Source: Acidithiobacillus ferrianus (GTDB lineage Bacteria; Pseudomonadota; Gammaproteobacteria; Acidithiobacillales; Acidithiobacillaceae). From it: 64,000 bases of DNA. The position numbers were made by a program, and so were the translations under genes. This document shows positions 11,610-55,504 of the stretch, piece after piece; position 1 is the first letter of the stretch, and every line of letters begins with the position of its first letter. The DNA is taken from contig NZ_WNJL01000037.1 of the NCBI RefSeq assembly GCF_010378095.1, positions 508,915 through 572,914 on the forward strand, given 5' to 3'. The notes under the pieces were generated by a model, which saw only the letters and a program-made list of their open reading frames with translations, was not told the DNA's origin and ran no database searches.

Positions 11610-14003
11610 TTAGAACGCGAAACTTAGCGTACCAAACACTGCTCTGGGCGCGCCCGGATTGACAATTTCATAGCCCGCGGTATTTGTGTTAAAATACCCG
11701 CCGCCAGTAATGTCAGCAGTAGAATTATATTCTCTGTTGAATAAGTTGGTAACGTTCAGTGAGAATGCAGTGTACCGAATTCCAGGTATCAGTCCATTAA
11801 GAGCACTCGTTCGCGCATCAAGTTCCATGTTGACCACATTGTAGCCGCCAATCTTTTGGTGGAATGAAGGTGCGCCATCATTATTATTGAAGATGAATTG
11901 CGCCCCGTAATATTGATCAAAAATTGTTGCAGATACCCTGCTCCGTACAAAGTTGAGATACTTACTGTAGGTCACACCAATATTCGCAGTCACGTCAGGT
12001 GTCGCAGAAACCGGAGCTCCATTATACGATTGATTATCTGCAGTAGAAAAATACTGAGTATAATAAGCGTGAATGAATCCAACGTTGGAAAACATCGACC
12101 AGTTATGATTAATCTTTGCGTCCAACGATAGATTGACGCCATTAAGAATCGCATTCCCGTAACTGAAAATGGTATACAACGGGTTCGTGGGTGACGTAAC
12201 AGGAATCGTCTCATTGCTCAGTTGATCGTGAAAATAGTTTGCGTCAGCGAACACATCGTCAAGTCCTAAAAAACCCTTTTGATGAAACTTGACGCCTGCT
12301 TCATAATCGTCACTTTTCACCGGATACAAAGTTCCCAGCTCCGTTAGAGGACCAGCAGCCGCATTGAAGTTTCCGGCTGTTGGATTTTGATAGGTCACTG
12401 AATAATTTCCATAAATGGCAATGTTACTTAGCAGCTTATAATTGACACCAAAGGATGGCTCCCACCTCTGGTATTCTTTAGCAAGGCTGGGAGATGTACT
12501 GTATGATGCATTTGGGTACTCTGCGGCTATAGACGGTGCATTTTGAAAAAAATGCGTTTGGAAATCCATGAAATCTAGGCCAGGAACAATGGTGAGGCCA
12601 GGCAGCGGTGTGATACGATCCTGCAGGAACCCCGATGCGTAGGTTTCTACGTAGTTATGATTCGTAATTGAAGTCGGATTCCCCGGATAAGGGTTTCCAT
12701 CGATGCCAGGGATAGGATTACCTGTTAGACTATTACCGCCAAACCCATTCACGTAGGTATTCCCTGCGATGACATATCCGCCGAATGCTACTCTGTTCAT
12801 GGGCAAGTGAACCCCGAAATCTAATTTGTCTCCATAGGTGTTCGTGTGCCAATATGTTACTTCGGCTCCGGAGTTGCTATTCGGCGGATAAAAATTATTG
12901 ACTCCGTAATGGTTCAGTACGCTATTCCTGTACCACATTTCGTTCGTTAAATTAACATTACTGGCTATTTTAAGCCGTTGGCGGCCATATAGAAGAAACA
13001 TGTGATCCTGGTCAATCTTATGCCAGACAGATGTGGGTAGCGTCGAATAAAAGCCTGTCGAACTCTGGCTGTATGGCGTACCATTGGGTAAACCGCTGAG
13101 GGTTACGCCGGGGATTGGTGACAAAGGGATTTGGTTGGGTCTGTATGATTTGGCGTCGACGTAGTAAGCACCGAAGCTGTAGCTATTGCCGTGATAGTGT
13201 TTTCTAAGCTTGAAAAATAGCTCCTCACTGTGGTTGGGTAGATATGAACCTGTTCTGAAACTGTGGCCATGCGCGTAAGCGCCGGCGATGACCGCAGACC
13301 AACCATCAAATCTTCCTGTATCCGCAGATGCCGATACAATTTTAGATCCAAAACTTCCATAGGAGAAGGCCGCCTTTGCTTTGGCGTGACGACTCGGCTG
13401 CACCGGAAGAAAATTAATAGTGCCCCCAATACTGTCAAACCATCTACTTCTGGGGTTCCCAGGGCCATATATGGTGTTGATGCCGGAAATAAGCGACCCT
13501 ATGGGTGTTTCTACGGTGTGAAAGCTTTTTCCCTCATCCAGATTTTGGATGGGGATGCCGTCGAACAATCCTGTGATTCCGTTATATTCCAAATTTCCAC
13601 TATAACTCGTGACACCGACTTGTATGCCCCGTATTGAAATTGTGGATCTGTTCGAGACACCCGTACCATCTGGGCCGCTTAAGTACACTCCAGGTTGTAT
13701 GCTCAATGCCGCTGTGGAGCTGGCGTTTGGGCCGAAAATTTTAGCCTGTTTGGACGTCACTCTGGCTACACTTTGAGTCGAATTAAATATTTGATCGTTG
13801 GTTAAGAGTTTGCTCGAGAAGGATGAGCCTGCAGTTTTTTTCTTTTCGGGGTTTTTTGCCGTCTTTTTTACGTTACCAACATAATTGCCCTTTGTCGGTT
13901 GTATTGGTTTTGTTTGTGCATTGGCATCCCCTGCATAAAGAAGTACTGCGGTGGTGATGACAGCCAGCGCCAACGCTGGTTGTGGTTTATTTTTTTGCGA
14001 CAT
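11610..14003 (-). CDS. TonB-dependent outer-membrane receptor (TBDR 1)
   Basis: 797 aa with a signal peptide (LALAVITTAVLLYAGDANAQ). The plug domain has the family hallmarks ISIRGIQVGVTSYSGN, LFDGIPIQNL and INTIYGPGNPRSRWFDSIG, and a 22-strand barrel follows, ending in the outer-membrane signature FGTLSFAF. Such receptors import scarce ligands using energy from TonB-ExbBD. It belongs to the same subfamily as the receptors at 23950-26247 and 26440-28827 (shared YGPGNPxxRWxDSxGGT and GAPRAVxG ends). A Pho-box-like region precedes it (14070-14116). The ligand is unknown; an organophosphate is suggested by neighbourhood. AAGGAAA precedes ATG 14003. Confidence 0.9.
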   Translation of the reverse strand: MSQKNKPQPALALAVITTAVLLYAGDANAQTKPIQPTKGNYVGNVKKTAKNPEKKKTAGSSFSSKLLTNDQIFNSTQSVARVTSKQAKIFGPNASSTAALSIQPGVYLSGPDGTGVSNRSTISIRGIQVGVTSYSGNLEYNGITGLFDGIPIQNLDEGKSFHTVETPIGSLISGINTIYGPGNPRSRWFDSIGGTINFLPVQPSRHAKAKAAFSYGSFGSKIVSASADTGRFDGWSAVIAGAYAHGHSFRTGSYLPNHSEELFFKLRKHYHGNSYSFGAYYVDAKSYRPNQIPLSPIPGVTLSGLPNGTPYSQSSTGFYSTLPTSVWHKIDQDHMFLLYGRQRLKIASNVNLTNEMWYRNSVLNHYGVNNFYPPNSNSGAEVTYWHTNTYGDKLDFGVHLPMNRVAFGGYVIAGNTYVNGFGGNSLTGNPIPGIDGNPYPGNPTSITNHNYVETYASGFLQDRITPLPGLTIVPGLDFMDFQTHFFQNAPSIAAEYPNASYSTSPSLAKEYQRWEPSFGVNYKLLSNIAIYGNYSVTYQNPTAGNFNAAAGPLTELGTLYPVKSDDYEAGVKFHQKGFLGLDDVFADANYFHDQLSNETIPVTSPTNPLYTIFSYGNAILNGVNLSLDAKINHNWSMFSNVGFIHAYYTQYFSTADNQSYNGAPVSATPDVTANIGVTYSKYLNFVRSRVSATIFDQYYGAQFIFNNNDGAPSFHQKIGGYNVVNMELDARTSALNGLIPGIRYTAFSLNVTNLFNREYNSTADITGGGYFNTNTAGYEIVNPGAPRAVFGTLSFAF

Positions 14004-14069
14004 TGCGATTTCCTTATAGTGACTTATGGTAACTCGCTAGAGAATATCAGACTAATGTTACAGGAGTGC

Positions 14070-14116
14070 GTCACTGAGGTGACCTAAATATTTTTATTGA
14101 TTACATTAACATGACG
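14070..14116 (-). promoter_or_regulatory. Pho-box-like repeats and 14-bp palindrome before TBDR 1
   Basis: Read on the minus strand, CGTCAT (14116-14111) and TGTAAT (14105-14100) lie 11 bp apart. Downstream is the palindrome GTCACCTCAGTGAC (14083-14070). The identical 14-mer occurs at 30842-30855 ahead of the regulator/exbB operon, which argues for a shared regulator. Confidence 0.55.
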
Positions 14117-14149
14117 TAAACGGATCGCTTGGGATATTTTTCAGGATAG

Positions 14150-14640
14150 CTAATCACGAGTTCTTGGTCTTTTCCCCGTCCATGCGGCATACAGCACCGG
14201 GGCCAACCATAAGCTCATCACCGTTCTCAGTGTCAGTCCACCCATGACTGAGATGGCCAGGGGCTGCAGCAGGTCGGTTCCGCGCCCGATGCCGATGGCG
14301 AGGGGCAGAAAGTCGAAAACATCGGCCAGCATTCGTCATCAGGATGGGCCGCTGGCGCTGACGGGCAGCAAACGCTACGCTGGCAGCTTTTGGATGGTTC
14401 CCATCCAACTGGCGAGCACGGGCGAAGATCAGGATTACGTTGTTCACGGCGATGACGAAGACCAGCAAAATTCCCAGAAATGCCGTGCCGTCCAGTGACG
14501 TATGGGTGATCATCAACAGAATCAGTGCCCACGACGCCGCCAGCGCTATGGGAAAAATCGCCACCGTCGCCGCTTTCTGGCTGCCGAACTGAAAACCTAG
14601 CAGAATCAGCAGCACGCAGACTGAAATACCTGCGGCTGGG
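14150..14640 (-). pseudogene. RND efflux pump C-terminal remnant
   Basis: The frame from about 14635 to 14335 encodes the last membrane helices of an RND (HAE/AcrB-like) pump: VLLILLGFQFGSQKAATV, FPIALAASWALILLMITHT, LGILLVFVIAVNNVILIFAR, then RPILMTNAG. A frameshift near 14330 moves the final part (FDFLPLAIGIGRGTDLLQPL, then LRTVMSLWLAPVLYAAW) into another frame. Everything N-terminal to the last helices is gone. It abuts a TolC-family N-terminus (14606-14755). Confidence 0.8.
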
Positions 14641-14755
14641 TACTACACAGAGCTTCTGAAATAGCTTGGGGCAGGGTGAGGGAAACTCCATCTGCAGCCG
14701 CGACACTTGGCAAAATGCACACTATGAGAACCGTTAAATATATATGAAATATCAA
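14606..14755 (-). pseudogene. TolC-family outer-membrane factor, N-terminal remnant
   Basis: From a TTG at 14755 the frame gives a signal peptide (YLTVLIVCILPSVAAADG) followed by VSLTLPQAISEALCSTQPQ, the classic first helix of TolC-like efflux proteins (L-x-AI-x-AL-x-x-P). The frame then enters RND sequence out of frame and stops. This looks like a deletion that joined the 5' end of an outer-membrane factor gene to the 3' end of an RND pump gene. Not recognisable by simple ORF size. Confidence 0.65.
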
Positions 14756-14819
14756 TGTACATTATCCACAGCCAATCAGTCTGGCATTGATTTGCAGTCT
14801 GCAACGGCATTATCACGAA

Positions 14820-15365
14820 TCAGTTGCTGAAATTGTGCCGACGTACACAGATCGTGTCCGGGCCTTCATGACATCCAGGCATGAGACCAGCAGTCACCAC
14901 AGGTTTGTAATAACGTTTCTGTAGTACTGCGTTGCGCATCTCTTCTAACTTGAAATAGAAAATACGTAGCCCGATATACCTTTGCCCATTCGCTTCTTGA
15001 AGAAGTTCAAAAGCTAACTCCATATCCGGAGGGCTCGATCAGGGTGCGCGATAAGCTGATAACGTAGATGCAGCATCCCAAAAACTTCTGAAAGATTAAC
15101 ATCATGACCTATTAAAATCAACATGTTTGCACGAGATAAGAACTCGGAACTTGAGATGGTGCCTGATATCTATTAGTAGACCCGAGGAGGCTGACAATCA
15201 ACTTCATGACTGGCGTAGCTCCGTGCCGTGCATAATAATGATCCTCTCGCGCTATCCTGGCATACAGATTCCGAAGATACAGCATATGACTCATCACTTT
15301 CAATGAGCAAACCTTTCCCCATCCCACCTGATTGCACGGCGGCTCTTCGTCGGATCGAGTGGGTA
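14820..15365 (-). pseudogene. histidine acid phosphatase (phytase-like), C-terminal half of a split gene
   Basis: Three frames carry consecutive blocks of a histidine acid phosphatase: CNQVGWGKVCSLKVMSHMLY (about 15345), MLILIGHDVNLSEVFGMLHL with the catalytic HD (about 15100), then LAFELLQEANGQRYIGLRIF and the ending GLMPGCHEGPDTICV. The enzyme family hydrolyses phosphomonoesters such as phytate or glucose-1-phosphate in the periplasm. Two frameshifts lie near 15040 and 15115. The N-terminal half is at 18500-19217. The two halves join logically across the insert: ...ESFLMEWMESRA at 18500 continues with RSDEEPPCNQVGWG here. Confidence 0.8.
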
Positions 15366-15437
15366 GGGGGGTGGTAGAGGGCCGGGCCGAAAAGACATCA
15401 CCTGGTCGGCGGACGCTCCCGTCGACGGCTGCGCAGG

Positions 15438-15522
15438 CACAAAAACTTTATCAACATGGCCTACCTGATCCTGGGTAAACAGGATCTCAGGCTACCCACT
15501 TAAAACGTCGAGGAACCCAGGA
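15438..15522 (+). mobile_element. ISL3-family transposase C-terminal remnant (copy A)
   Basis: HKNFINMAYLILGKQDLRLP and its stop at 15501 are the end of an ISL3 transposase, followed by AAACGTCGAGGAACC, probably the IS end. A nearly identical, longer copy in the same orientation lies at 18290-18503. 15504-15633 holds nothing else. Confidence 0.75.
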
Positions 15523-15633
15523 AGTTTTACAGATTGAGCCTTTCCCGCGATTTTCTCCTTACGTCATCTCAAAATCGCGAGATAGCCGAAAACTCGCGGG
15601 AGACTTCTGAGCGATTATCGTCCCTCCGCCCGC

Positions 15634-18503: not shown

Positions 18504-19217
18504 CACGGCTTTCCATCCACTCCATCAGAAAAGATTCACCCACTGCATTGGCTACGTGAAGAGCTCCATTTATGTACATGGTTTTTTATTACAACTTTGT
18601 TTGGACTATTCAGCGCACATACACAGCGACCTTTTTGTCTAAGTCAGGGCAAAGAATATTTTTTATTTCATCCATATAGATTACGTACTTATAATTATTG
18701 AGCAATGGATGTGAAATAGATTGCAGGTAGTGCTTTTCAGTAATGGATTTGTTCACAGGACATGCGTGCATTTTAACGGCATGGAACAGAGGATCCTTAC
18801 CATGAAGGACATGTCCGACTGTTACATGCTGAATTGGCCTGAATCCCTCCACAACACCGTCGCCGGTGGCGACAGTTCTTTCCATGTTATCCGCAAACAC
18901 TTTTAGCTAAAAGTGTTTGCGGATAAGCGTATATCGATTGATATAGTGCCTATAGTATGTTGAAATACCAAGACCCATCATCCTGGCTAAAAAGACCCCG
19001 TTTTCCGATAAAAACTATGTTTTATACTCCATGAAGGCCATCTATGACTCGACCACCGATCCAGTACCGCCCTGCTTTTTGTAGGAGATCGCACACTGTG
19101 GCGCATGAAAATAATTACTTTTTTAATAGTGAGGCTTGGATTACTCCTTGACGTGCTAGCGCTTTCAGTAAATAGTGATACTAACAAAAGCACAAATATA
19201 AACAACAAATTATTCAT
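18500..19217 (-). pseudogene. histidine acid phosphatase (phytase-like), N-terminal half of a split gene
   Basis: ATG 19217 (AGAGGTGG upstream) opens a signal peptide (MNNLLFIFVLLLVSLFTESA), then VIIFMRHSVRSPTKSRAVLD, containing the catalytic RHxxRxP of histidine acid phosphatases. Frameshifted continuations follow: LARMMGLGISTYYRHYINRY, then FADNMERTVATGDGVVEGFR, DPLFHAVKMHACPVNKSITE, and finally NGALHVANAVGESFLMEWME at 18500, where ISL3 copy B begins. The remainder is at 14820-15365. The gene lies 61 bp downstream of cytochrome b561 in the phosphorus locus. Confidence 0.82.
18887..18926. repeat. 40-bp perfect palindrome inside the broken phosphatase gene
   Basis: The two 20-bp arms are exact reverse complements with no spacer (centre TTTTAG|CTAAAA). 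The arm nearer 18887, read on the minus strand, encodes the natural phosphatase residues LKVFADN. The other arm is its inverted copy and creates an in-frame stop. Confidence 0.9.
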
Positions 19218-19278
19218 TACACCACCTCTCTAATATACCGCTATACTGCTGACCAATTCAGAAAAATGTCGAACCATT

Positions 19279-19860
19279 CTACCAAACTTTAAATATCTTA
19301 GGAATTCGTGGTGATCTAAAAGCATGCAATAGTGCCACACTGATGTGCACCCACCAATATACCCAGACGAATTCCGAAATATAGTCGTGAATTTTTTTAG
19401 GAATTTGATAGATATGTATCGGTGCGGAAACTCCAAAGTTTGGGATAAGAAAAAACATGGTGACGCCAGTAAATGCCATGCCTGTGACTGCAAACAATCC
19501 AAACCCTTGGACGAGGCCTGGAAGTCCTCCACGGAGTCCAGATTCTGGGAGATAACCTTTCACCATACCTGCAACGTCTGCACAAATATTTTGCAGATAA
19601 GTTCCACGATAAGGAAACAGATGAGCACGAACCTGCTCGTTATAATATATTTGTAGCCAGAAAAGCGCGATGACGACAGCCGTAGTCATTCCCACCCACA
19701 TATGTGCGTGGAAAAGAAGATGACGAAAATGAAGCTCTCCTTTCCTTTTCCAGATCGCCTTCATATCCAGTTCACTCATCAACTCGAAAGTCATAAGTAC
19801 CGCAAGACAAATGTGAAGCCACCTAGTAGTTTTTGGCCACTCTAAAGTTCCCATACTCAC
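19279..19860 (-). CDS. cytochrome b561-type membrane protein
   Basis: 193 aa with four hydrophobic segments: LHICLAVLMTFELM, LFHAHMWVGMTTAVVIALFW, FGLFAVTGMAFTGVTMFFLI and WVYWWVHISVALLHAF. Histidines in helices 1, 2 and 4 (RWLHICL, HAHMWVG, WVHISVALLHA) are placed as haem b ligands in the b561/NiFe-hydrogenase b-type family. The likely role is quinol-linked electron transfer across the inner membrane. AT-rich, with an acquired look. It lies between tonB and the phosphatase remnant. Confidence 0.75.
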   Translation of the reverse strand: MSMGTLEWPKTTRWLHICLAVLMTFELMSELDMKAIWKRKGELHFRHLLFHAHMWVGMTTAVVIALFWLQIYYNEQVRAHLFPYRGTYLQNICADVAGMVKGYLPESGLRGGLPGLVQGFGLFAVTGMAFTGVTMFFLIPNFGVSAPIHIYQIPKKIHDYISEFVWVYWWVHISVALLHAFRSPRIPKIFKVW

Positions 19861-20069: not shown

Positions 20070-20783
20070 CTAAGTCTTAATGTGTACATCGACTACAAAT
20101 AAAGTATCCGTTTTCGGCATTTTTCTAGAAAATGCCGGGTATATAATGCTTCTAACGGCTTTCTCAGCGGTACGGTCCACAGCGCCGATACCGCTACTTC
20201 GTGATATTTTCGCCCACAGGACTCTGCCTTGTGGGGTCAATTCAAAGGACACCACCGTCATGCCTGAAAGACGCATCAACCGCAGTTCTTCCGGGATCCG
20301 CAAGTTAGCCTGAATTAATAACCGAACCTCTGAAACATAAAGGTCTACCGCCGACTGGCGCGCTGCCGGACTCGGTGCGGGCGGCGATGGTGGCGCGAGC
20401 GGGGTCACCGGTGGCGTGTATACCGGTGCCCGCGGTGCGGGCGTTTTGGCGAGCAGCGGTTTGGGCGGCAGCGGATGATGCGCCACCGGATGCGGAACTG
20501 GCCTCGGTATGGGTTTGGGCAGTGGTTTCGGGATCGGCTTCGGATGCACCACGGGCTTCGGTGGCGGGGGCAAAGGTTTGGGCTTGGGTGGTGCCGGTTT
20601 AATCATGTGGATCGCCATAATCTTTGGCTTTGGCTTGACCGTCACCGGCTGCGACAGATGGGAATAAATCAGTCCCCCGATCATCAGCGCCTCTATAACG
20701 GCACCAATCATCAGCGCCCTTCCGAAGTGATCCTTCTTGAACTTTGGGGACTGAACCGGGGAGGAGAGGGTAGCGGCGTTCAT
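20070..20783 (-). CDS. tonB: TonB energy-transducing protein (TonB 1)
   Basis: 237 aa. Residues 22-42 form the inner-membrane anchor (ALMIGAVIEALMIGGLIYSH), followed by about 95 residues of Pro/Lys repeats (KPKPLPPPPKPVVHPKPIPK) spanning the periplasm. The C-terminal TonB domain begins near residue 146 (IPEELRLMRLSGMTVVSFEL) and ends SRKMPKTDTLFVVDVHIKT. Its first 144 codons are identical at DNA level to the tonB at 63271-63993, while the C-terminal domains clearly differ. It lies 75 bp downstream of the phosphoesterase gene and is probably co-transcribed. Confidence 0.92.
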   Translation of the reverse strand: MNAATLSSPVQSPKFKKDHFGRALMIGAVIEALMIGGLIYSHLSQPVTVKPKPKIMAIHMIKPAPPKPKPLPPPPKPVVHPKPIPKPLPKPIPRPVPHPVAHHPLPPKPLLAKTPAPRAPVYTPPVTPLAPPSPPAPSPAARQSAVDLYVSEVRLLIQANLRIPEELRLMRLSGMTVVSFELTPQGRVLWAKISRSSGIGAVDRTAEKAVRSIIYPAFSRKMPKTDTLFVVDVHIKT

Positions 20784-20790
20784 ACGTTCT
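20350..20790. repeat. 441-bp direct repeat, copy 1 (5' part of tonB 1)
   Basis: By base-by-base reading this segment equals 63560-64000, offset 43,210. Identity includes codons 1-144 and 7 bp upstream of the ATG. It may extend further upstream in the second copy, which reaches the window edge. Confidence 0.92.
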
Positions 20791-23949: not shown

Positions 23950-26247
23950 TTATAAATACGCTGTTAGAGATCCATATACTGCTCTCGGCGCACCTGGATC
24001 AGCCAGTACGGCACCAGCACTATTTGGACCCAGCTCACCTCCGCTGGAAATATAAGCCATACTGTTGTAATGACGATTGAAGAGGTTAAAAATCTGCAGC
24101 GAAAATTTTATTTTATGAAACCCAGGCACCAGATGCATGGCGGTGGTTACAGAGAGTCCGAGATCGACAATATTATATGCAGGATTTTGTGCATTCGTCG
24201 GTTCATTGGTGATATTGGAAAACAAGGTTGTGGAGGAGGTATAGGTATCGGAGAGGCGAGCATTCCAGAGTGCCGCTATTTGATACCAGCGGTAGCCGAC
24301 TCCAAAGGATAGCGACGTCGTTGGCACGTTAGGCATGCGTGCTCCATACAAAGGCATCCCAGAGGCGGGCCGATAGGTGGGGTAATAGGCATGCTCGAGG
24401 GTGTCGTTGGTGAACAACTGCACACCCAATCGTTTACCATAGTTCGCGCTAAAATTCACCCCATTATAGATGGCGCTTACCTGATCTAATTCGGTGATCA
24501 GCAGGGAGGGAATAAAACTACTCAGCACGGCGTTGGTCAGATGTTGGTGGAAGGCGCTGACTGTGCCGTCCCATGGGCCAATATCCCATTTTACTCCGCC
24601 GATGTAGCTGTTAATGGAAGTTGGGTTTCTTGGCACAACCACTGTGGCCTGATCATAGTTGCCATAAGCGTCCGCAGAGGGAGTCTGGAAGTTCTGTGAC
24701 CAGGTAGCAAAAAGATGCAATCCCTGCAGGACACGATAGTTTATGCCCAAACTCGGGATGAGTTTTGTATAATTGCTAACATTATTGGCAGCCAGGTTGC
24801 GAACTATATATGGTGTAGCTCCGACCGGAATCGTAGCATTGGAATTATTGACGAACTGGACTCGATAGCTCATTAAGGCCAAGCCTGGCGTAATATGTAG
24901 TCCCGCCAATGGCGTGATGGTATCCTGAGTAAAAATGTTTGCGCCTTCCCAATCATCATAGTAGCCAGCCACAAAAATAGGATTCGCAGGACTGCTCGCA
25001 AATACGGCAGGATTATAGCCGAGATAGGTGTTGTGATTACGCTCGTCCATGATGTAGCCGCCTACCTGAAGGTGGTTCCATGGGAGTGCGGCAGAAAGCA
25101 CCAGCTTGTCCCCTAGTGTAGCAGTGGTGTTGGTAAAATCTTCCGTGTTCACAAGATGGAAATAATAATTATTTGGACGGTTGTGGTGCCGATATCCGTT
25201 TCGATACCAGAGCAGATTATCCATGTGAATATTGCTTGCGAGTCGCAGATGGAGTTTGGCATAGCCGAGGAACATATGGGCTGTGTCATTTTTGAAGTAT
25301 AAGGAAGTGGGTATGGTATAGGTATAGCCGGTTGTCTGTTCGCTGTAAGCGGGGCCGGGTTGCTGATATCCATTGACCGAAACCCCTGGAATGGGAGAGA
25401 CGGGAATATACATGGGGCGATATTCGCTCGTCCGGCTGAAGTAGAGCCCGACGCTGGCATGCCCGCCGGTGAAATCCTTGCGGGTTTTCATATAGAAGGC
25501 AGCACCCTCGTTAGGCGCATAGTAAGGATCGGAGCGGAAACCATTGCTGCGCGTGTACCCTGCAGCAAAGACTGTACTCCAGCCAGACAAGTCACCGGTG
25601 CGAAACACGGCCGCCGCAGAAGGGGAAGAAAAGCTGCCATAGCCCAGAGCGACCTCGCCTCCCATATGCTTGCCAGGTTCCTGAGGGATAAGATTTACAG
25701 TGCCACCCATGCTGTCATACCAGCGGTTATCTGGATTACCTGGGCCTTGTGTGACCCGAATGCCAGAAAATATGTTAGAGATTGGGGTTTCCGAGCTTTC
25801 CCATCCATCCCAGTTCGATAAAGGGTTGTTCATGGGCACACCATCAAAAGATACCGCGATGCCATTTTTTTCCGGATTACCTGCGCTCAAAGCCCACCCT
25901 GTCTGGATGCCATTGATGCGAATCTGGTAGCGGGCGGCACCGTTACCCGAGCCATATCCATTGATGTGTACGCCCGGCGCAACGGTAAGGGCGTCGACAA
26001 TGGTGCCACCCGGAGCCACCTCGTTGGCGATTTTGGCTGCACTGATATAAGTAGATGGGGTATTACTGCGCAACAATCTTGCCACTATTTTCTTAGCATT
26101 TGTTGAAGACGTTTCTGCGCTACTTTGTGAAACATTCCCAATATTTATTGGGCTATTATTGTCTGAGTAAGCATTGCTAGATATGGTTAATGCTGCCAGT
26201 GCGCATGTTGAATGAAGCAGGTTTTTAGTGCCAGGTGCCAAGAGCAT
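23950..26247 (-). CDS. TonB-dependent outer-membrane receptor (TBDR 2)
   Basis: 765 aa with a signal peptide (LHSTCALAALTISSNAYS). The plug has YQIRINGIQTGWALSAGNPE, VSFDGVPMNNPLSNWDGWES and IRVTQGPGNPDNRWYDSMGG; the barrel ends GAPRAVYGSLTAYL. It is closest in layout to TBDR 3. AAAGGAG lies 10 nt before ATG 26247. Its leader carries the remnant of an exbD C-terminus (26261-26332), showing that the gene arose by duplication of an exbD-receptor unit. The phosphoesterase gene follows after 203 bp. The ligand is not determinable from sequence. Confidence 0.9.
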   Translation of the reverse strand: MLLAPGTKNLLHSTCALAALTISSNAYSDNNSPINIGNVSQSSAETSSTNAKKIVARLLRSNTPSTYISAAKIANEVAPGGTIVDALTVAPGVHINGYGSGNGAARYQIRINGIQTGWALSAGNPEKNGIAVSFDGVPMNNPLSNWDGWESSETPISNIFSGIRVTQGPGNPDNRWYDSMGGTVNLIPQEPGKHMGGEVALGYGSFSSPSAAAVFRTGDLSGWSTVFAAGYTRSNGFRSDPYYAPNEGAAFYMKTRKDFTGGHASVGLYFSRTSEYRPMYIPVSPIPGVSVNGYQQPGPAYSEQTTGYTYTIPTSLYFKNDTAHMFLGYAKLHLRLASNIHMDNLLWYRNGYRHHNRPNNYYFHLVNTEDFTNTTATLGDKLVLSAALPWNHLQVGGYIMDERNHNTYLGYNPAVFASSPANPIFVAGYYDDWEGANIFTQDTITPLAGLHITPGLALMSYRVQFVNNSNATIPVGATPYIVRNLAANNVSNYTKLIPSLGINYRVLQGLHLFATWSQNFQTPSADAYGNYDQATVVVPRNPTSINSYIGGVKWDIGPWDGTVSAFHQHLTNAVLSSFIPSLLITELDQVSAIYNGVNFSANYGKRLGVQLFTNDTLEHAYYPTYRPASGMPLYGARMPNVPTTSLSFGVGYRWYQIAALWNARLSDTYTSSTTLFSNITNEPTNAQNPAYNIVDLGLSVTTAMHLVPGFHKIKFSLQIFNLFNRHYNSMAYISSGGELGPNSAGAVLADPGAPRAVYGSLTAYL

Positions 26248-26260
26248 GTCATCTTCTCCT

Positions 26261-26439: not shown

Positions 26440-28827
26440 CTAAAACTTTGCGGAAACGGCAACATAATACTGACGGGGAGCGCCCGGATCCGCCAAGATA
26501 GCCCCAGCGCTGTTTCCGCCAAAGTACCCGCCACTGGTGATATACTCGATCGGATTATATTTGCGCCCCAAGAGATTCGTCACTCCGACAGAAAGCGACA
26601 CCGCCTTGAGAGTGGGGACGTACCGGTTAAGCTTGTCCGTTTTGAATGCAATCCCCGCATTTAACACATTGTACCCGGACATTTTTTGCTGAGATGGTAA
26701 TCCCGTGAGGTTGTCGAACAAGTATTGCGAGCTCGTGTACTGGTCCACGAGATTGGGAGATATCAGCACTCCATCGACATACGCCCGATAGTAGGCGCCT
26801 GCGGTAAGCGTCATATTGGGATTGTAGGAGACCGGCAATCCAGAAGTCGATATCCCTCCTCCTGATGGCGTATAAGAATTAAAGTAATTATGGCTCAAGC
26901 CTAAATTGGCATAGAGATGCCAATGCCAGCTTGGGTTATCCGCAACGGTCAGGTTCACTCCATTTAGTGTGGCATCGGCTCCAGCAAATTTCTGCGTACC
27001 GTTGGCCAACGCAATAGGAACGGTCTCATTGCTCAGGTAATCATGGTAGTAGTTTACGTTGAAGGTGAAGTCATGGAGAAACATAAAGTTTTTTATCAGG
27101 AACTTGGCGCCAACCTCATAGTCCGTACTTTTCACTGGTTTAAGGGTGCTATAATTAACGATACTCGCATTGTAAGCACCGAATGCCCCATTGATAGGGT
27201 TCTGATAGGTCAGCGCATAATTGCCATATAATGCCCCCCACTTCACTGGAGCATATCTAAAACCAACCGAGGGTTCCAGCTTGGTGAATGTTTTGGAACT
27301 GTTGGATGTGGCGGTGAAGTTGGTGGCGCCCTGCGTCACATAGGGAATTCCCTGTGCCCCATTATTGTAGAACTGTGTGGCAAATTCTACCGCCGAAAGG
27401 CCCGGCGTGATCTTTAATCCGGAAATTGGCGTGATGGTGTCCTGAATAAATCCGGCCAGATAGGTGGTATTTGTTGTATCGTTATTATAGTCTACTGTAG
27501 GATTGGTAACGCTGGCAATGGCGGTCTGTGGAATATCATTATTCGGGGTCATAGATATCAAGGTATTATATTGTTGCTGTATCCAGTAACCTCCTGCTTT
27601 TACGGTGTTGTATGGCAGTTTCCAATCAAAATACAGTTTGTCTCCGAAGGTTTCACTATTGGGATAATAATACTCGGTAGTGTTCCCTGGTTGGAAATTA
27701 TTAATTCTGTTGTGTATCCGATGTCCATGTCGATACCATAGCATCTCATGCAGTCCCACATGCCTATCCAACCTCAGATGCAACTTCGAGTAGAGCAGGT
27801 AATCTTGAACGGTGATCTGCTTGAACCAGACGGATTCCGGCAAAGAATAATAGTACCCGCTCGTGGTTTGACTGTACAGCGGGGCATTCGCATTCAGACC
27901 TTGAGTGGTGATTCCTTGGATTGGTGAAACTGGAATAAAGTTCGGTCTAAATTCGTTCGCGCTATTGACATAGCCACCGATGCTGAAGGTACCTGATCTG
28001 AAGGTTTTTACCACCTTACCAAAATAGGCGAACGCCTTACTTGGTGCATTAAATGATCCGGTACGGAACGTGTTGTTTTGGGTATATCCTCCAGCCAACA
28101 CGGCAGACCAGCCATCCATTGCCCCCGTTTTTACATTGAAGTGCAACCCATACGTTCCATTGCTGCCAAAAAATGTTCCAACCTCAGCACTTGGTTTCAA
28201 GGACGGTTGTACGGGTACAAAATTAATCGTCCCACCAAGACTATCAAACCATCTCGATGCCGGGTTCCCTGGGCCGTATATCACGTTGATGCCACTGATC
28301 ATCTGGAGAATGGGTATTTCATTGGAATCCCACGAACCGTTGTTTTGTACAAGACCGTTCATGGGTATCCCATCAAACAAGATAGATATCCCACTTCTTT
28401 CCGGATCTCCGGCAACCGAAGCCCAACCCACCTTGACGCCGCGAACTGAAATTGAGTAGCGCCCCGTGCTGGCGATACCTGCATAGCCACGGACCGCAAT
28501 TCCTGGGGCTGTAGAAAGCGCTTGGGCAGCGCCTGATGCCGGACCTAGCGCTTGCATCTGTTTTTTGGATATTACGGTTTCTGACTGTGTCGATTGGAAT
28601 ATCTTCTTCTTGGTCAGTTTTTCATTGGTTGATGCCAGCAGTTTTCCTGATTCCGTTAGTATGCCTGATGACGCATTGACCTTGCCGACATTCACGGTGT
28701 CGTTTGTTGCGGCAGAAGTGGTTGGCGCGGTGACCCCGGCTTGAGCCGCGGCCACGACGGTAATGTTCCATGCGCCCGTGGCAGCAATAGCCACTAGCAG
28801 AGGTTTTAACGGCAGTTTCTTGTACAT
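26440..28827 (-). CDS. TonB-dependent outer-membrane receptor (TBDR 3)
   Basis: 795 aa. A signal peptide is followed by an N-terminal region with FQSTQSETVISKKQMQALGP, which contains the likely TonB box (ETVIS). The plug has RYSISVRGVKVGWASVAGDP, ILFDGIPMNGLVQN and INVIYGPGNPASRWFDSLGG; the barrel ends APRQYYVAVSAKF. It starts 18 bp after exbD and is the last gene of the regulator-exbB-exbD-receptor operon, so transducer and receptor are made together. Similar in subfamily to TBDR 1 and 2. The ligand is inferred to be an organophosphate from context only. Confidence 0.9.
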   Translation of the reverse strand: MYKKLPLKPLLVAIAATGAWNITVVAAAQAGVTAPTTSAATNDTVNVGKVNASSGILTESGKLLASTNEKLTKKKIFQSTQSETVISKKQMQALGPASGAAQALSTAPGIAVRGYAGIASTGRYSISVRGVKVGWASVAGDPERSGISILFDGIPMNGLVQNNGSWDSNEIPILQMISGINVIYGPGNPASRWFDSLGGTINFVPVQPSLKPSAEVGTFFGSNGTYGLHFNVKTGAMDGWSAVLAGGYTQNNTFRTGSFNAPSKAFAYFGKVVKTFRSGTFSIGGYVNSANEFRPNFIPVSPIQGITTQGLNANAPLYSQTTSGYYYSLPESVWFKQITVQDYLLYSKLHLRLDRHVGLHEMLWYRHGHRIHNRINNFQPGNTTEYYYPNSETFGDKLYFDWKLPYNTVKAGGYWIQQQYNTLISMTPNNDIPQTAIASVTNPTVDYNNDTTNTTYLAGFIQDTITPISGLKITPGLSAVEFATQFYNNGAQGIPYVTQGATNFTATSNSSKTFTKLEPSVGFRYAPVKWGALYGNYALTYQNPINGAFGAYNASIVNYSTLKPVKSTDYEVGAKFLIKNFMFLHDFTFNVNYYHDYLSNETVPIALANGTQKFAGADATLNGVNLTVADNPSWHWHLYANLGLSHNYFNSYTPSGGGISTSGLPVSYNPNMTLTAGAYYRAYVDGVLISPNLVDQYTSSQYLFDNLTGLPSQQKMSGYNVLNAGIAFKTDKLNRYVPTLKAVSLSVGVTNLLGRKYNPIEYITSGGYFGGNSAGAILADPGAPRQYYVAVSAKF

Positions 28828-28845
28828 CTCGTACTCTCCTTTATT

Positions 28846-29247
28846 TCAACGGGGTTTTGCGGCAATACCGATATCACTGACCCCTGCCTTCTGGCAGGCA
28901 TCCATGACGTGAACAAAATCTTGAAACGGCACCCCCTTGTCGGCCGCTATGGTGATCTGGGTCTTGCCCGGATCACTGTCGTGCGCCAGCATTTTTTGTA
29001 GCGCGTTCAAGTCATAGCGATGACCTTTCACCCGCACCGTCCCATCTTTTTCAATATTGATGGTGTAATGCGGATGCGGCAGCATCTTCGCCTGACTGGA
29101 TGCCGGCAACTGGAGGTTCAGTCCCTTGTCCGGGATCATCTGCAGCGTGATCATGATGAAAAACACCAGCAGGAAAAGCATGATGTCGATCATCGGGATG
29201 ATCTCCACCCGCCCCTTCCTCTGCTCGAAGTAACGCCGTTCCATCAA
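28846..29247 (-). CDS. exbD: ExbD/TolR-family proton-channel subunit
   Basis: 133 aa. One N-terminal membrane helix (IPMIDIMLFLLVFFIMITLQ) contains the essential Asp (MIDIM) that carries protons for TonB energisation. A periplasmic domain follows with ITIAADKGVPFQDFVHVMDA and the ending CQKAGVSDIGIAAKPR. The ATG overlaps the exbB stop (ATGA). With ExbB it forms the inner-membrane motor for TonB. Confidence 0.93.
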   Translation of the reverse strand: MMERRYFEQRKGRVEIIPMIDIMLFLLVFFIMITLQMIPDKGLNLQLPASSQAKMLPHPHYTINIEKDGTVRVKGHRYDLNALQKMLAHDSDPGKTQITIAADKGVPFQDFVHVMDACQKAGVSDIGIAAKPR

Positions 29248-29933
29248 CCCGCCCTCGCCACGGCCGCCGCCATCTTCGGCATCGCGGTCTGGATGTTTCC
29301 CTCGCCATCGGTGATCGGGTGTCCATCCATCCGGTTGAGCAGCATGGTCTTCACTGAATCCATCTGCAGCAGGATCTGCCGCACCTGGTTATTGAAGGCG
29401 TTGAAAGCCACCAGGCCGGTCATGGCGATGAACAGGCCGGTGGCGGTGGCGACCAGGGCGTCCGCCACTCCCCCCGTCACCGCCGTCGGCGCGTGCCCTG
29501 GCGCGGCCAGGACGGAAAAAGCGTGGAACATGCCGATGATGGTGCCGAAAAGCCCCAGCAACGGCGCCAGGGTGATGATGGTATCCAACATCCACAAGCG
29601 ACGATCCAGTTGCGGCGCCATGACCAGAATGCTCTCCTCCAGGCGGCTGGCAAGGGGATCGCCCTGCACATATCCGGAATGATCCGCCGCCGTTTTCAAC
29701 AACGCCGCCTCCGGCAGGTCGCCGGCGTCATCCGCGAGGGTCTGCAAGGCATCCCGGTCCAATCGCCCGTGCTGGGCGAGTTCCCGTACAAAAACGGTGC
29801 CGCGCAGGATGGTGCGGCGCAGGTACCAGAAGCGGTCGACAATGACGCCCAGGGCGATCACCAGAAGACCGGCCAGTACATAAAGCACACCATCGGAGTA
29901 GTTGGCGAGATGGATGAGGTAGGCGGTATTCAT
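29244..29933 (-). CDS. exbB: ExbB/TolQ-family proton-channel subunit
   Basis: 229 aa with three membrane helices: LYVLAGLLVIALGVIVDRFW near the start, then the ExbB/TolQ signature from about residue 130 (LDTIITLAPLLGLFGTIIGM) and VADALVATATGLFIAMTGLV. AGGAG 8 nt before ATG 29933 fixes the start; the longer frame from 30089 lies in the upstream regulator. It is followed by exbD with a 4-bp overlap. Together they convert proton-motive force to TonB movement. Confidence 0.93.
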   Translation of the reverse strand: MNTAYLIHLANYSDGVLYVLAGLLVIALGVIVDRFWYLRRTILRGTVFVRELAQHGRLDRDALQTLADDAGDLPEAALLKTAADHSGYVQGDPLASRLEESILVMAPQLDRRLWMLDTIITLAPLLGLFGTIIGMFHAFSVLAAPGHAPTAVTGGVADALVATATGLFIAMTGLVAFNAFNNQVRQILLQMDSVKTMLLNRMDGHPITDGEGNIQTAMPKMAAAVARAG

Positions 29934-29952
29934 CAATAAAACTCCTGAAACT

Positions 29953-30732
29953 CTAGAAAGAGGCGGCACCGAAGCGGCGCGCGGAAGAAGAAAGACCAGC
30001 GAAGGGGATGTGGTTCCCCGCAGGACGGACGATCGTCCTGCCGTGGTGCTGGAACGTATCGGGGGGAATGAACTGGTAACCGCGTCCACGGAGGGTGATG
30101 ATACAGTCGTCGAAACCCAAAAAGCTCAGACGGCTGCGTAACGCGCTGACGGCCCTGATCGCCTCCATGGCGAGGGTCGACCCCGCTGACGCCAGAACCT
30201 TCTGCAGGAGGGCTACCGGCAAGACCCGCTGCGGGTGGCCCCAAAACAACAGCAACAGGTTAAACAGCGCTTCCTTCAGCGCCACGGAGCGCCCCGCCGC
30301 ACTCAGCATTTTTTGGGATCGGTCCAGATGCAGCGGGCCATAAGCGAGGGTGGTCACCGCGACCTGCTCGATCCACGCCTGGATGCGGCGCGCGACATCC
30401 CCGGAGTCCTGCTGAATGCCCCGGGATCTTAAAAAAGAAGGCGCGGTGGATTCTCTCGGCAAGTCCACGGCCATCATGGGACAGACGGCATGGGTCATGG
30501 ACTTGACCTGCGCGCCCCAGTCGCTCCAGTCACTTTCCAGCGGTTTGCCCGCGAGAAAGAGGACCGGGGTGCGCCGTTGCGCACCCAAGACGACCTGGCA
30601 GCGGTGCAGGTCACTGACCCGAAAGACCGGTCCGGTATAGGTGGACAACCGGTCGAGCAGGGCCCGGGTAATCAATCCGTTCCGCTCCAGCACCACCAAT
30701 GGGTGTGCCGAGCTTTGTATCGCGGCGTTCAT
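29953..30732 (-). CDS. OmpR-type winged-helix regulator with degenerate receiver (regulator 1)
   Basis: 259 aa. Residues of about 150-240 form a Trans_reg_C winged helix (KEALFNLLLLFWGHPQRVLP, EAIRAVSALRSRLSFLGFDD, CIITLRGRGYQFIPP). The N-terminal 130 residues have a receiver-like strand/helix pattern (PLVVLERNGLITRALLDRLS, RTPVLFLAGKPLESDWSDWG) but no Asp-pair in strand 1 and no phospho-acceptor Asp at strand 3. AGAGG precedes the ATG. First gene of the regulator-exbB-exbD-TBDR 3 operon, preceded by a four-unit 11-bp repeat. It is likely to control TonB uptake without a classical phosphorelay. Confidence 0.75.
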   Translation of the reverse strand: MNAAIQSSAHPLVVLERNGLITRALLDRLSTYTGPVFRVSDLHRCQVVLGAQRRTPVLFLAGKPLESDWSDWGAQVKSMTHAVCPMMAVDLPRESTAPSFLRSRGIQQDSGDVARRIQAWIEQVAVTTLAYGPLHLDRSQKMLSAAGRSVALKEALFNLLLLFWGHPQRVLPVALLQKVLASAGSTLAMEAIRAVSALRSRLSFLGFDDCIITLRGRGYQFIPPDTFQHHGRTIVRPAGNHIPFAGLSSSARRFGAASF

Positions 30733-30828
30733 GCGGCTACCTCTTAATTTATGCGCCGGGATATATCCGGCGTCACCAAAAGTGGAGGTCTTTGCCCCCT
30801 AAAACTATCTCTATGCTAACAGCCCAAT

Positions 30829-30867
30829 GTGACGTCCATGTGTCACTGAGGTGACCTTTTTATGACG
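30829..30867 (-). promoter_or_regulatory. Pho-box-like array before regulator 1/exbB operon
   Basis: On the minus strand four hexamers start at exact 11-bp steps: CGTCAT (30867), GGTCAC (30856), TGACAC (30845), CGTCAC (30834), with an A tract after the first. This is the geometry of PhoB-type boxes. It contains the 14-bp palindrome also found before TBDR 1 and overlaps the end of regulator 2. Confidence 0.65.
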
Positions 30868-31706
30868 TTTTGCAAACCCTGCGGAGGTGAAAAGCGGTAT
30901 CCGAAGCTATGCACGGTCTCCAGCCAGCCTCTGGCCCCCGCACTTTCCAAGATCTTGCGTAAACGATAAATCTTGACCACCAAGGTATTGGGAGCGAGGT
31001 AGGCGCCCCTCCCTCCCCACAGGATGTCGGCGATCTGTTCGTTGGAGATGACTTCATCCGGATGCAGGACGAAATAGTGGAGCAGGGAGAAGAGCCGTCG
31101 CGGCAAATGGATCTCCTGTCCCAATACCCAAACCCGCAGTGACGCGAGATCGATGCAGAGGCTTTCCTCTTCTCCCATCCGGACAGGCGTCTGTGTGCGC
31201 ACCTTTTTAAGTACGTTGCGCACTTGGGCGGTCAGCGGCTCGAATCCCATGCTGGCGGGGAGGTAGGCTTGCGCGCCCGCCTCCAGCGCCGCCACGGCAT
31301 CCGCCCTTTCGTGATTTTCCAACCCGCTGCTGACGACCAGGAAAGGCAAATCATCCTGATCTGCTGCGAATGGCCATCGTTGCAGCCAGTCGCCTGTCGC
31401 GGCGGACCATCCGAGCAGGACCAACACCTCCGGGTCCCAGCGCTGCACCCACTGTTCAGCTTCGGTCCGCTCCGTGGCCCGGCGCACCCGACCGCCGGTA
31501 CGCTTCAGTGCCGTTTCAACGGAGGCGATCGTTTTAGCGCCGGTTCGCGCATTCACCAGCAGCAGGATGCGTGGGCCTTCCGGCAGCGAGGTCCGGATAG
31601 GCAACTGCGTCCGCATCTGTGCGCACATTACCGCCCGCAACACATGCACGGTGTGCACACCGATACTATCCAAGAGGATCCAGAACATAGGGGAATTGCT
31701 CCACAT
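30843..31706 (-). CDS. OmpR-type winged-helix regulator with Asp-less receiver (regulator 2)
   Basis: Up to 287 aa; the start is uncertain (ATG 31706, or ATG 31688 with GGAG 10 nt upstream). A receiver-like domain covers about residues 45-160: strand 1 PRILLLVNARTG lacks the acidic pair, and strand 3 PEVLVLLGWSAATG has Gly where the phospho-acceptor Asp belongs. The C-terminal winged helix is standard (LPRRLFSLLHYFVLHPDEVI, VVKIYRLRKILESAGARGWL, ETVHSFGYRFS). It follows the phosphate-type MFS gene by 8 bp. It may bind DNA constitutively or with a ligand instead of phosphorylation. Confidence 0.8.
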   Translation of the reverse strand: MWSNSPMFWILLDSIGVHTVHVLRAVMCAQMRTQLPIRTSLPEGPRILLLVNARTGAKTIASVETALKRTGGRVRRATERTEAEQWVQRWDPEVLVLLGWSAATGDWLQRWPFAADQDDLPFLVVSSGLENHERADAVAALEAGAQAYLPASMGFEPLTAQVRNVLKKVRTQTPVRMGEEESLCIDLASLRVWVLGQEIHLPRRLFSLLHYFVLHPDEVISNEQIADILWGGRGAYLAPNTLVVKIYRLRKILESAGARGWLETVHSFGYRFSPPQGLQNVIKRSPQ

Positions 31707-31714
31707 CGAAGAGG

Positions 31715-33172
31715 TTATGAGCGTGAACCACTCTCTATCGGCTGGCCGGAACGGTCGGAGATCTTGACCACGGGTTGGGGGGGCACGCCGCCTTCCCCTT
31801 CCAGATCTTCCAGCGTCTGGCCACTCGGCTCCGGCAGCGTCAACCTGCTCAACCCCGCCCCCACCACCGATACCCCCGCGGAAAAGAGCATTGCACCCTT
31901 GATGCCGCCAGCGGCGCTGATGAAGGGAAAAACGAAGGTGCCGACGAAGGCCCCGAATTTACCGATACCCGCCGCAATGCCGTGACCGGTGGTGCGGATA
32001 CTGGTGGGGAACACTTCGGCCGGCATGACGAACGTGGTGCAGTTAGGTCCGAACTCGACGAAGAAGAAGCTGATGCCGTACAGCAGCAGGAAGGGCGCGA
32101 CCGCATGGGTAATTCCAGGCACCAGGGCGATCGTGGCGAAAGCGAACGCCATGATGCTGAACCCGATGATTTGCAATCGGCGATGACCAATGGCATCCAT
32201 GAAGAAAATGGAGGCGAGGTAGCCCGGGATGGCGAAGACCACGAACGTGATCAGGGCCCAGGAACTGATGGTCATCGTGCTGGTGCTGGGCGCCAGGAGG
32301 TTGAGGATCTCTGGGGTGGAGATGGCGTTCCCATAAAAAGCGTAGTCGTTGAGAAACCATGCGCCGCCAGTACCGAGGATCAGCACCAGGTATTTGGGAC
32401 TGGTCAGCATCGTCCACAACGAGATGCGCCTGGGGCTGGTTTTCTGCGTGCTGTGGGGGAGCACCTGGCCGCTCGAATAGCGCGCCATATCGTTGGCGGC
32501 TTCCTCGCTTTTTCCACGGACGAGGACTTTATAGCGAGGGGATTCGGGCATGCTGCGGCGGAGATAGAGCACCGCGAGAGGGGGCAGTGCCCCGAGACCC
32601 AGCATGATGCGCCAAATGGAATCCGGCGGCAGTCCCGAGGCCTCCAGAGTGAGGGCGACCACGGGGCCAAAGGCCAATCCCAGCCCCTGCATGCCGAACA
32701 CCAGCGAAGTCAACGCGCCGCGCTTTTTGGCATTGGCATATTCGGACATCAGCACCGCGCTCATGGGGTAGTCTCCGCCAATGCCGATGCCGAGAATCAC
32801 CCGAAAAAGCAGCAGCCAGATAAAACTCGGCGCAAAGGCGCAGGCGATGGCACCGACCGCCATGAGCAACGCTTCGATGCCATATATCCGTTTGCGCCCC
32901 AGCACATCGGCCAAACGCCCAAAAATCATGGCACCCAGGAAAGCGGCTATCAGCGAGATACTCGAAAGAAAAGCGATCTGGCCGTTGCCCAGGTGCCATT
33001 CCGGCTTGATGTACACCAGAGCGGAGCCAATGATGAATAGGTCGTAGGCATCGGTAAAAAATCCCATACCCGCCGTGAACGCGGCGCGCAAATGGAAAAA
33101 ACTCACCGGGGCGTTGTTGAGAGAATCGATGACACTAAACTGGGGTACGTGCGTGCCCGTAGACTGACTCAT
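31715..33172 (-). CDS. MFS transporter of the phosphate:H+ symporter type
   Basis: 485 aa with about 12 membrane helices. The opening FTAGMGFFTDAYDLFIIGSA and the loops GRLADVLGRKRIYG and GIGIGGDYPMSAVLMSEYAN are hallmarks of the PHS (Pho84-like) and related sugar/aromatic-acid MFS families. The second-half segment FVMPAEVFPTSIRTTGHGIA is also typical. AAGGAG precedes ATG 33172. The predicted substrate is inorganic phosphate. The four-unit Pho-box-like repeat upstream (33229-33267) and the phosphatase/receptor genes downstream support this. It forms an operon with regulator 2. Confidence 0.82.
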   Translation of the reverse strand: MSQSTGTHVPQFSVIDSLNNAPVSFFHLRAAFTAGMGFFTDAYDLFIIGSALVYIKPEWHLGNGQIAFLSSISLIAAFLGAMIFGRLADVLGRKRIYGIEALLMAVGAIACAFAPSFIWLLLFRVILGIGIGGDYPMSAVLMSEYANAKKRGALTSLVFGMQGLGLAFGPVVALTLEASGLPPDSIWRIMLGLGALPPLAVLYLRRSMPESPRYKVLVRGKSEEAANDMARYSSGQVLPHSTQKTSPRRISLWTMLTSPKYLVLILGTGGAWFLNDYAFYGNAISTPEILNLLAPSTSTMTISSWALITFVVFAIPGYLASIFFMDAIGHRRLQIIGFSIMAFAFATIALVPGITHAVAPFLLLYGISFFFVEFGPNCTTFVMPAEVFPTSIRTTGHGIAAGIGKFGAFVGTFVFPFISAAGGIKGAMLFSAGVSVVGAGLSRLTLPEPSGQTLEDLEGEGGVPPQPVVKISDRSGQPIESGSRS

Positions 33173-33228
33173 ACAGGTCTCCTTATGGAGCTATAGTATT
33201 GCGGCTCCGATCAGGATAACGGATTTGT

Positions 33229-33267
33229 GTGACACTAGTGTGAAGATTACATGACGTTTTTATGACG
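33229..33267 (-). promoter_or_regulatory. Pho-box-like array before the MFS phosphate symporter
   Basis: On the minus strand CGTCAT (33267), CGTCAT (33256), CTTCAC (33245) and TGTCAC (33234) start at exact 11-bp intervals, the first separated by AAAAA. This matches the PhoB box pattern (TGTCA repeats every 11 bp) more clearly than any other site in the window. It ends about 57 bp before the ATG. Confidence 0.7.
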
Positions 33268-55497: not shown

Positions 55498-55504
55498 GAT
55501 CCCC

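Follow-up and report, generated by a model that had tools for sequence, protein, structure and literature searches.

A probable Pho-regulon TonB system for phosphorus uptake in Acidithiobacillus ferrianus

The gene run and its described counterparts

Clusters that combine TonB and phosphate genes were described in Acidithiobacillus and Leptospirillum by Osorio et al. in 2008 and, in the passages that treat them, interpreted as serving Fe(III)-phosphate uptake (PMC2631029). Here we describe a locus of that kind in Acidithiobacillus ferrianus, found in a 64,000-nt stretch of its 3.17-Mb genome (the window, C31:508915-572914, whose coordinates are used for its features). It is a minus-strand run encoding, in this order, a major facilitator superfamily (MFS) transporter, two PhoB-like regulators (reg1 and reg2), ExbB, ExbD, TonB-dependent receptors 1 and 2, a beta-propeller protein with a PF04185 phosphoesterase domain (PE), TonB (tonB1) and a cytochrome b561-type membrane protein (Table 1). 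We propose that the locus is probably a Pho-regulon TonB system for phosphorus uptake. Common to it and the published clusters, as far as the same passages go, are a TonB receptor, ExbBD-TonB, a surface-layer protein, phosphatases, an MFS phosphate/phosphonate transporter, a PhoB-like regulator and phn genes; there, however, Fur boxes were predicted, PhoB control was suggested and the term 'Pho box' occurs 0 times in the main text, whereas the run has pst-like Pho boxes. The composition itself was thus already known, and the claim of an earlier note on this DNA that no acidophile system of this composition had been described does not hold.

In Caulobacter crescentus, TonB receptors of the PhoB regulon have been proposed to import phosphate-containing compounds (PMC11208175). 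The likeness lies in receptors that belong to a PhoB regulon and are accompanied by a phytase, phosphatases and a phosphodiesterase; the Caulobacter regulon differs in being transcriptome-based, and the passages on it hold no dedicated ExbBD-TonB-phosphoesterase-symporter run and no link to carbon-phosphorus (C-P) lyase. The phosphate utilization systems (PusCD) of Flavobacterium, from the part of the source that bears on them, are TonB transporters induced at low phosphate and encoded beside phosphonate genes, transporters of the inner membrane and phosphomono- and phosphodiesterases (PMC8115612). They differ in coming from Bacteroidetes and in having a SusD-type lipoprotein partner, for which no match was found among 20 window proteins scanned. 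A search of the literature on TonB, phosphate, C-P lyase and the Pho regulon in Acidithiobacillus, and on TonB with the Pho regulon or organic phosphorus, returned no title or abstract opening showing Pho boxes at these receptors, most subscription papers lying outside it. What is new is the pst-like Pho-box evidence; read from sequence, it would make these 'siderophore receptors' part of the response to phosphate starvation.

The gene set, the Pho boxes, their conservation and the neighbourhood were established by computation. From the MFS gene to tonB1 (33.2-20.1 kb) all genes lie on one strand with intergenic gaps of at most about 0.2 kb, and with a plug-barrel receptor, TonB, ExbB and ExbD the parts needed for TonB-dependent uptake are complete. 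The MFS transporter has TIGR00887 as its top NCBIfam match, under the curated cut-off of 610.3 bits, and its six best solved-structure relatives are all phosphate transporters (best E 1.3e-76); it therefore resembles a phosphate symporter without formal membership of that family. The DNA-binding domain of reg1 is nearest to that of E. coli PhoB (1gxp, E 5.9e-14), while its receiver domain scores 12.7 bits on PF00072, under the family cut-off of 30.2. For reg2 the top NCBIfam match is again PhoB, at 26.0 bits and below cut-off; a true PhoB is encoded elsewhere in the genome (C16:105479-106150, 300 bits against a cut-off of 296.2). PE, by its score and its invariant acidic and histidine motifs, is a PF04185 member: ENKTFDE, NFMADGE, PDDHTAG and EDDAQSGADH are kept in 13/13 aligned relatives. 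Its start was picked from a signal-like N-terminus judged by eye (a longer frame runs from 23851), and because of that N-terminus PE is probably exported.

The earlier note had also counted a third receptor and a phytase-like phosphatase in this one-strand locus. Receptor 3 is indeed related (39% identity to receptor 1, against 35% for receptor 2), but it lies 6 kb past tonB1, with the broken end of an AcrB gene, a class II aldolase gene and a transposase-like fragment (the last seen by eye) in between, and so is not part of the run. The supposed phytase consists of two broken pieces of a histidine acid phosphatase, both below the Pfam cut-off. No PF00328 match was found in 15 of the 17 genus genomes, and one of the two matching genomes matches through this remnant.

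Predicted Pho boxes in the window, the genome and the genus

The Pho-box model was trained on pst promoters: 20 distinct 18-mers, selected with an E. coli-style half-site consensus, from 26 of 30 pst loci in the 17 genus genomes. Among the four omitted loci, L109, L114 and L117 had no pair scoring at least 10, and L115, with a pair of 12.75, could have stayed. Against 100 Markov-random windows, two promoters of the run stood out. The MFS promoter holds the best 18-mer of the window (33251-33268, 24.1; random maximum 23.7) and a four-unit site of 28.0, and the promoter of reg2 the second-best 18-mer (30851-30868, 20.0; scores of at least 20.0 occur 0.04 times per random window) and a four-unit site of 21.4, the highest four-unit value in the random windows being 15.2. 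Both show tandem 7-bp repeats at 11-bp pitch, as in pst, and by eye a -10-like hexamer follows the last unit after 9 bp (TTATCC and TTAGCA, respectively), the same spacing as in the organism's own pst promoter. The earlier note had seen Pho-box-like repeats at three promoters; these two exceed chance, and the third, at receptor 3 (~14050-14117), does not on the pst-trained model. A 28-bp stretch there, chosen after the likeness was noticed, has 26/28 bases in common with GGTCACCTCAGTGACGCACTGCTGTCAC of C29:117442 (0/100 shuffles match), and because of this agreement it looks like a decayed relative of a Pho box. A strict pattern whose first base had to be C or G gave 8 sites against 5 in the control and missed the MFS box, and for these reasons it was replaced by the pst-trained model.

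Separately, the strongest four-unit site of the window (49934-49973, plus strand, 28.6, ahead of the MFS and reg2 boxes) precedes genes for an ABC ATPase and a hydrophobic protein (50263-51186 and 51084-52619), the latter with no Pfam or NCBIfam match, and near-copies of it occur in genomes G002, G006 and G007. The third-ranking 18-mer (6667-6684, plus strand, 19.2) has only short frames behind it.

The genome as a whole has 18 four-unit sites with at most two mismatches, against 0 for the reversed-pattern control. For eleven of them a TonB receptor or PF04185 gene is no more than 5 kb away (9/18 within 3 kb, 12/18 within 10 kb); such 5-kb zones make up 6.1% of the genome (binomial p 8.6e-10). 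By our own assignment the sites belong to two MFS genes, three regulator-type promoters, four receptor promoters and one each of pst, a phospholipase C-receptor pair, an exbB-exbD-acid phosphatase run, an OprD-like porin, an ABC transporter and a site near an other-strand receptor, with three lacking a clear assignment. With at most one mismatch, 129 four-unit sites were found in the genus, in all 17 genomes, against 6 in the control (five of them in one genome). The site at C21:17099, found by pattern, scores under 17 on the pst model. Pho boxes recur at equivalent places in paralogues and relatives of the run, and further Pho boxes in the genus precede gene sets in which phospholipase C or acid phosphatase is combined with a receptor or ExbBD. 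At L217 (702-5423) a Pho box is followed by genes for a phospholipase C specific for phosphocholine (TIGR03396, 764.8 bits) and for a TonB receptor that did not come up in the PF00593 genome search, and at L218 (634-2055) an OprD-like porin, a candidate phosphate-starvation porin by its promoter, stands behind a zero-mismatch four-unit Pho box.

Table 1. Positions of the genes and predicted regulatory elements in the window
Feature	Position	Strand	Basis
MFS transporter, phosphate:H+ symporter type	31715..33172	-	TIGR00887 305.6 bits
Four-unit Pho box of MFS promoter, 11-bp pitch, 57 bp upstream of start codon	33229..33268	-	predicted, pst-trained model
reg1, PhoB-like winged-helix regulator	30843..31706	-	PF00486 61.6 bits
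Four-unit Pho box upstream of reg2-exbB-exbD-receptors, overlapping reg1 3' end	30829..30868	-	predicted, pst-trained model
reg2, second, more divergent winged-helix regulator	29953..30732	-	PF00486 25.2 bits, slightly below cut-off 26.2
exbB	29244..29933	-	PF01618 94.4 bits; start picked by homology, longer frame from 30089
exbD	28846..29247	-	PF02472 106.4 bits
TonB-dependent receptor 1	26440..28827	-	PF00593 85.4, Plug 41.8 bits
TonB-dependent receptor 2	23950..26247	-	PF00593 88.4, Plug 26.8 bits
PE, beta-propeller and PF04185 phosphoesterase	20858..23746	-	PF04185 35.3 bits, above cut-off 23; YVTN repeats
tonB1	20070..20783	-	PF03544 34.4 bits
Cytochrome b561-type membrane protein, after tonB1	19279..19860	-	PF01292 44 bits
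Broken histidine acid phosphatase, pieces 19229-18990 and 18906-18613	18613..19229	-	PF00328 11.7 and 12.9 bits, cut-off 23.6
Apparently decayed regulator-type Pho element upstream of receptor 3	14057..14084	-	likeness to C29:117442 element
TonB-dependent receptor 3, outside the run	11610..14003	-	PF00593 99.9 bits
C-P lyase genes phnG, H, I, J, K, L, M, TIGR03223 gene, phnN candidate, GntR/UTRA regulator	53533..61122	-	
MFS2, between HD-domain gene and phnG	61156..62688	-	TIGR00895 186.3, TIGR00887 149.3 bits, both below cut-off
Phosphonate-degradation HD-domain oxygenase	62592..63305	-	TIGR03276 252.8 bits, above cut-off 214.6
tonB2, at contig end, ahead of phn genes	63271..63993	-	C-terminus 90/95 residues as A. 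ferrivorans tonB

Conservation, C-P lyase genes and the receptor set

A neighbourhood search, which the earlier note had put forward as a check, confirmed that the gene set is conserved: paralogues and several species show the same gene order, with equivalently placed boxes. PE-like genes are full or near-full length in 13/17 genus genomes (two have fragments only, two distant relatives only). The nearest named relatives of PE are in Acidithiobacillus and in metagenome genomes from acid habitats, and outside the genus the PE gene is often solitary; among the best 80 of 164 PE loci found, all in named genomes, a Pho-like site of any kind occurs at 22/80. (PE and PF04185b labels overlap in the neighbourhood count of these loci, so that the receptor count given below is the one used.) In A. 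ferrivorans DSM 22755 (L145) the collinear run is MFS, reg1, reg2, exbB, exbD, receptor, PE, tonB, an HD-domain oxygenase and MFS2, and it continues directly into phnG-M, more phn genes and a GntR-type regulator (to phnF). A. ferruginosus CF3 (L118) has exbB, PE and tonB with the same phn run.

The window holds these genes too, although the earlier note had not mentioned them: the C-P lyase set phnG-M, with phnK and phnL as ABC proteins named by their expected positions, and a second tonB lie at 53.5-64.0 kb. PhnG (155 bits), PhnH (184), PhnM (401.5) and the TIGR03223 protein (258.6) are over their cut-offs; PhnI scores 515.6, PhnJ 462.6, and the regulator 69.5 on GntR and 45.4 on UTRA. The phnN candidate is named by place only, having no Pfam match. 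A perfect 441-bp repeat is common to tonB1 (20350-20790) and tonB2 (63560-64000), and the C-terminal part of TonB1 agrees with A. ferrivorans TonB at 40/90 residues. Given that the contig ends inside this repeat and that it is tonB2 whose C-terminus is of the A. ferrivorans type, the cluster's TonB and phn halves were separated here either by rearrangement or by assembly.

The phn (C-P lyase) operon of A. ferrooxidans is said to have been described by Vera et al. in 2008. According to the relevant part of the 2008 genome paper, that species has C-P lyase genes but no phosphonate permease of the typical kind, though phosphonate use was reported (PMC2621215). In contrast to the A. ferrooxidans operon, the phn genes here are connected by gene order with a TonB system and a pair of MFS genes, the latter being candidates for the missing phosphonate import route.

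Sixteen receptor genes were found in the genome: 15 from the PF00593 genome search and the one next to phospholipase C. Nine stand behind Pho promoters, operon partners included (receptors 1 and 2, C29_119k, C29_122k, C16_192k, C31_76k, C24_316k (weak), C31_296k and C29_32k). In the receptor tree, eight of these and receptor 3 form one group (support 93/99), while C29_32k and the six unboxed receptors fall outside it. The Pho label, in which receptor 3 was included as 'weak', was equally clustered in 2/500 label shuffles. The unboxed receptors had no site (four-unit score of at least 15 or 18-mer of at least 17) in the five stretches, 83.8 kb including overlaps, that contain them. Among them, C24_150k adjoins FecCD, a periplasmic binding protein and an ABC ATPase; C29_180k adjoins MarC and malate dehydrogenase, as in a citrate-linked cluster in the passages of Osorio et al. 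(PMC2631029); and C23_58k adjoins two phosphorylase-family genes. Of the genome's own PF04185 genes, 5/7 lie within 5 kb of a receptor, one being the curated phospholipase C under a Pho box.

Receptors 1-3 do not match the siderophore receptor model TIGR01783, which 3/5 unboxed receptors scanned match at 93-108.5 bits, below the cut-off of 223.5. The model of receptor 1 shows a predicted barrel and plug (predicted template-modelling score 0.79). A sequence search of the PDB gave nothing for receptor 1 and C29_180k, the hits for C29_162k were weak (E 0.003-0.006), and charge and isoelectric point did not separate the boxed from the unboxed class. At E 1e-60, relatives of receptor 1 were found among 398 phylum genomes in its own genome only, at most two candidates being scored per genome entry listed. 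The organisms named among the 120 listed of 170 receptor 1 relatives include Acidithiobacillus, Acidiphilium, Acidihalobacter, Acidiferrobacter, Acidocella, Acididesulfobacter and metagenome genomes of larger groups, these names coming from a minority of the 120, most of which carry none.

Several further observations concern the history and surroundings of the run. ExbB and ExbD (29933-28846) are identical over the aligned residues to those of the C29 paralogue (L054 7705-8969) while the receptors and PE differ, which suggests that the energy module was copied recently between the two loci. The cytochrome b561-type gene likewise follows tonB at L054, L062 and L063. Two genes for sulfotransferases, of which one has TPR repeats, and a gene for an Slp-type lipoprotein lie at 7358-11521, beside receptor 3. 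A broken piece of a PE C-terminus (43831-44022) and what by eye is a receptor C-terminus without Pfam match (52917-53372) are perhaps debris of a further module copy. Receptors beside phosphorylase-family (PNP_UDP_1) genes, possibly of a nucleoside-linked type, are seen at L065 (6391-12783) and L258 (8874-13547).

Phosphorus uptake and the competing explanations

From these results we infer PhoB binding, enzyme activity, the direction of transport and, above all, the cargo in the following way. In phosphate shortage, PhoB, perhaps together with the reg1 and reg2 products, would bind the tandem Pho boxes and bring about transcription of the MFS gene and of the regulator-exbB-exbD-receptor genes. 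The receptors, presumably specific for phosphorus compounds, would pull phosphate mono- and diesters and phosphonates, possibly metal-bound, across the outer membrane with power from TonB-ExbBD. PE would free phosphate, either at the cell surface or in the periplasm, and the phosphate:H+-type symporter would move it inward. Uncleaved phosphonates would go to the co-oriented C-P lyase in the relatives, and probably also in the ancestral arrangement here. As far as regulation and gene neighbourhood go, the phosphorus scavenging that the earlier note proposed is well supported by the sequences (pst-like boxes, phosphoesterases and the A. ferrivorans C-P lyase run); its phytase link is lost.

A number of results weigh against phosphorus uptake as the purpose of the run. 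In A. ferrivorans the MFS box scores at least 15 and the reg2 box does not, and exbD is split over two frames in that draft. At the 80 PE loci, genus included, a receptor lies within 10 kb at 37, many loci being ended by contig ends, and a Pho site lies within 600 bp upstream of PE at 3. C29_32k is boxed yet groups with the unboxed receptors, the branch of the boxed group is drawn open, and the box of the C24_316k receptor itself is weak (17.9) and absent from the two-mismatch list. An opposite-strand 18-mer of 16.7 lies near the unboxed C23_58k, and because L065 has next to PE a receptor that is likewise accompanied by a phosphorylase-family gene, the split between boxed and unboxed receptors is not clean. 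Taken receptor by receptor, the presence within 5 kb of a Pho site shows no significant association with that of a PF04185 gene (Fisher p 0.12, n=16). The 50 matches listed for the modelled fold of receptor 1 are generic TonB receptors at 13-17% identity, the best being siderophore receptors. The MFS score is only half of the TIGR00887 cut-off, and the PE model has a mean confidence (pLDDT) of 45.1: the propeller part alone folded and the enzyme domain failed, so that we claim no active-site geometry for it. Finally, a Caulobacter stalk receptor near a phosphate-starvation gene is, in the passage that deals with it, constitutive (PMC2996285).

The purpose published for such clusters, at least in the passages on them, is iron, and Fur boxes were predicted there (PMC2631029). 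Phosphatases would free phosphate, Fe(III) would be chelated by it and the receptors would import the complex for iron, under Fur and PhoB. The modelled receptor fold is of siderophore type, some receptor relatives are named 'iron complex outermembrane receptor protein' by JGI, and in Nodularia, as an excerpt has it, methylphosphonate raised TonB receptors along with iron-siderophore permeases (PMC5955973). The promoters of the run nevertheless bear pst-type Pho boxes, C-P lyase and phospholipase C have, as general knowledge, no known iron role, and no FecBCD-type gene was found among the window proteins scanned, such genes adjoining one unboxed receptor. A scan with a Fur consensus did not tell boxed and unboxed receptors apart. 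Window promoters reach only 11-12 of 19 (99% null value 13), an argument against iron that is weak because unboxed receptors score the same, and two boxed receptors of other loci, C29_32k and C29_122k, do reach 13. On balance we regard uptake for iron as unlikely. Somewhat unlikely, in our view, is also a mixed cargo, in which metal-phosphate or metal-organophosphate would be taken up for phosphorus and the metal would be by-catch or a cofactor supply for the phosphoesterases. The habitat is, as is generally known, of low pH and rich in metals, the Pho boxes suit a phosphorus purpose and the modelled fold suits chelates, but nothing examined indicated a metal site. That the genes are independent, with separate roles, and were gathered by repeats and mobile debris would agree with the debris, the 441-bp repeat at the two tonB genes and the 43/80 PE loci without a receptor within 10 kb, many of them ended by contig ends. 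Paralogues and several species share the order and the placement of the boxes, which stands against such a loose neighbourhood and makes it very improbable.

If the locus is indeed a Pho-regulon system for phosphorus uptake, its meaning would reach beyond the run. The passages of Osorio et al. point to the great number of TonB receptors that Acidithiobacilli have even though soluble iron is plentiful (PMC2631029). Tentatively, and with slightly more doubt than confidence, we suggest that about half of the Acidithiobacillus TonB receptors, hitherto called siderophore receptors, form one acidophile-centred organophosphorus family, induced by phosphate starvation and feeding exported phosphoesterases and, by way of MFS carriers, C-P lyase. 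Pho-regulated receptors beside phosphoesterases and C-P lyase would answer both puzzles, the receptor surplus and the absent phosphonate permease. If this is true, many 'iron' receptors of biomining and mine-drainage bacteria would be re-annotated, and a role in phosphate starvation may explain why bacteria of iron-rich waters keep so many TonB receptors.

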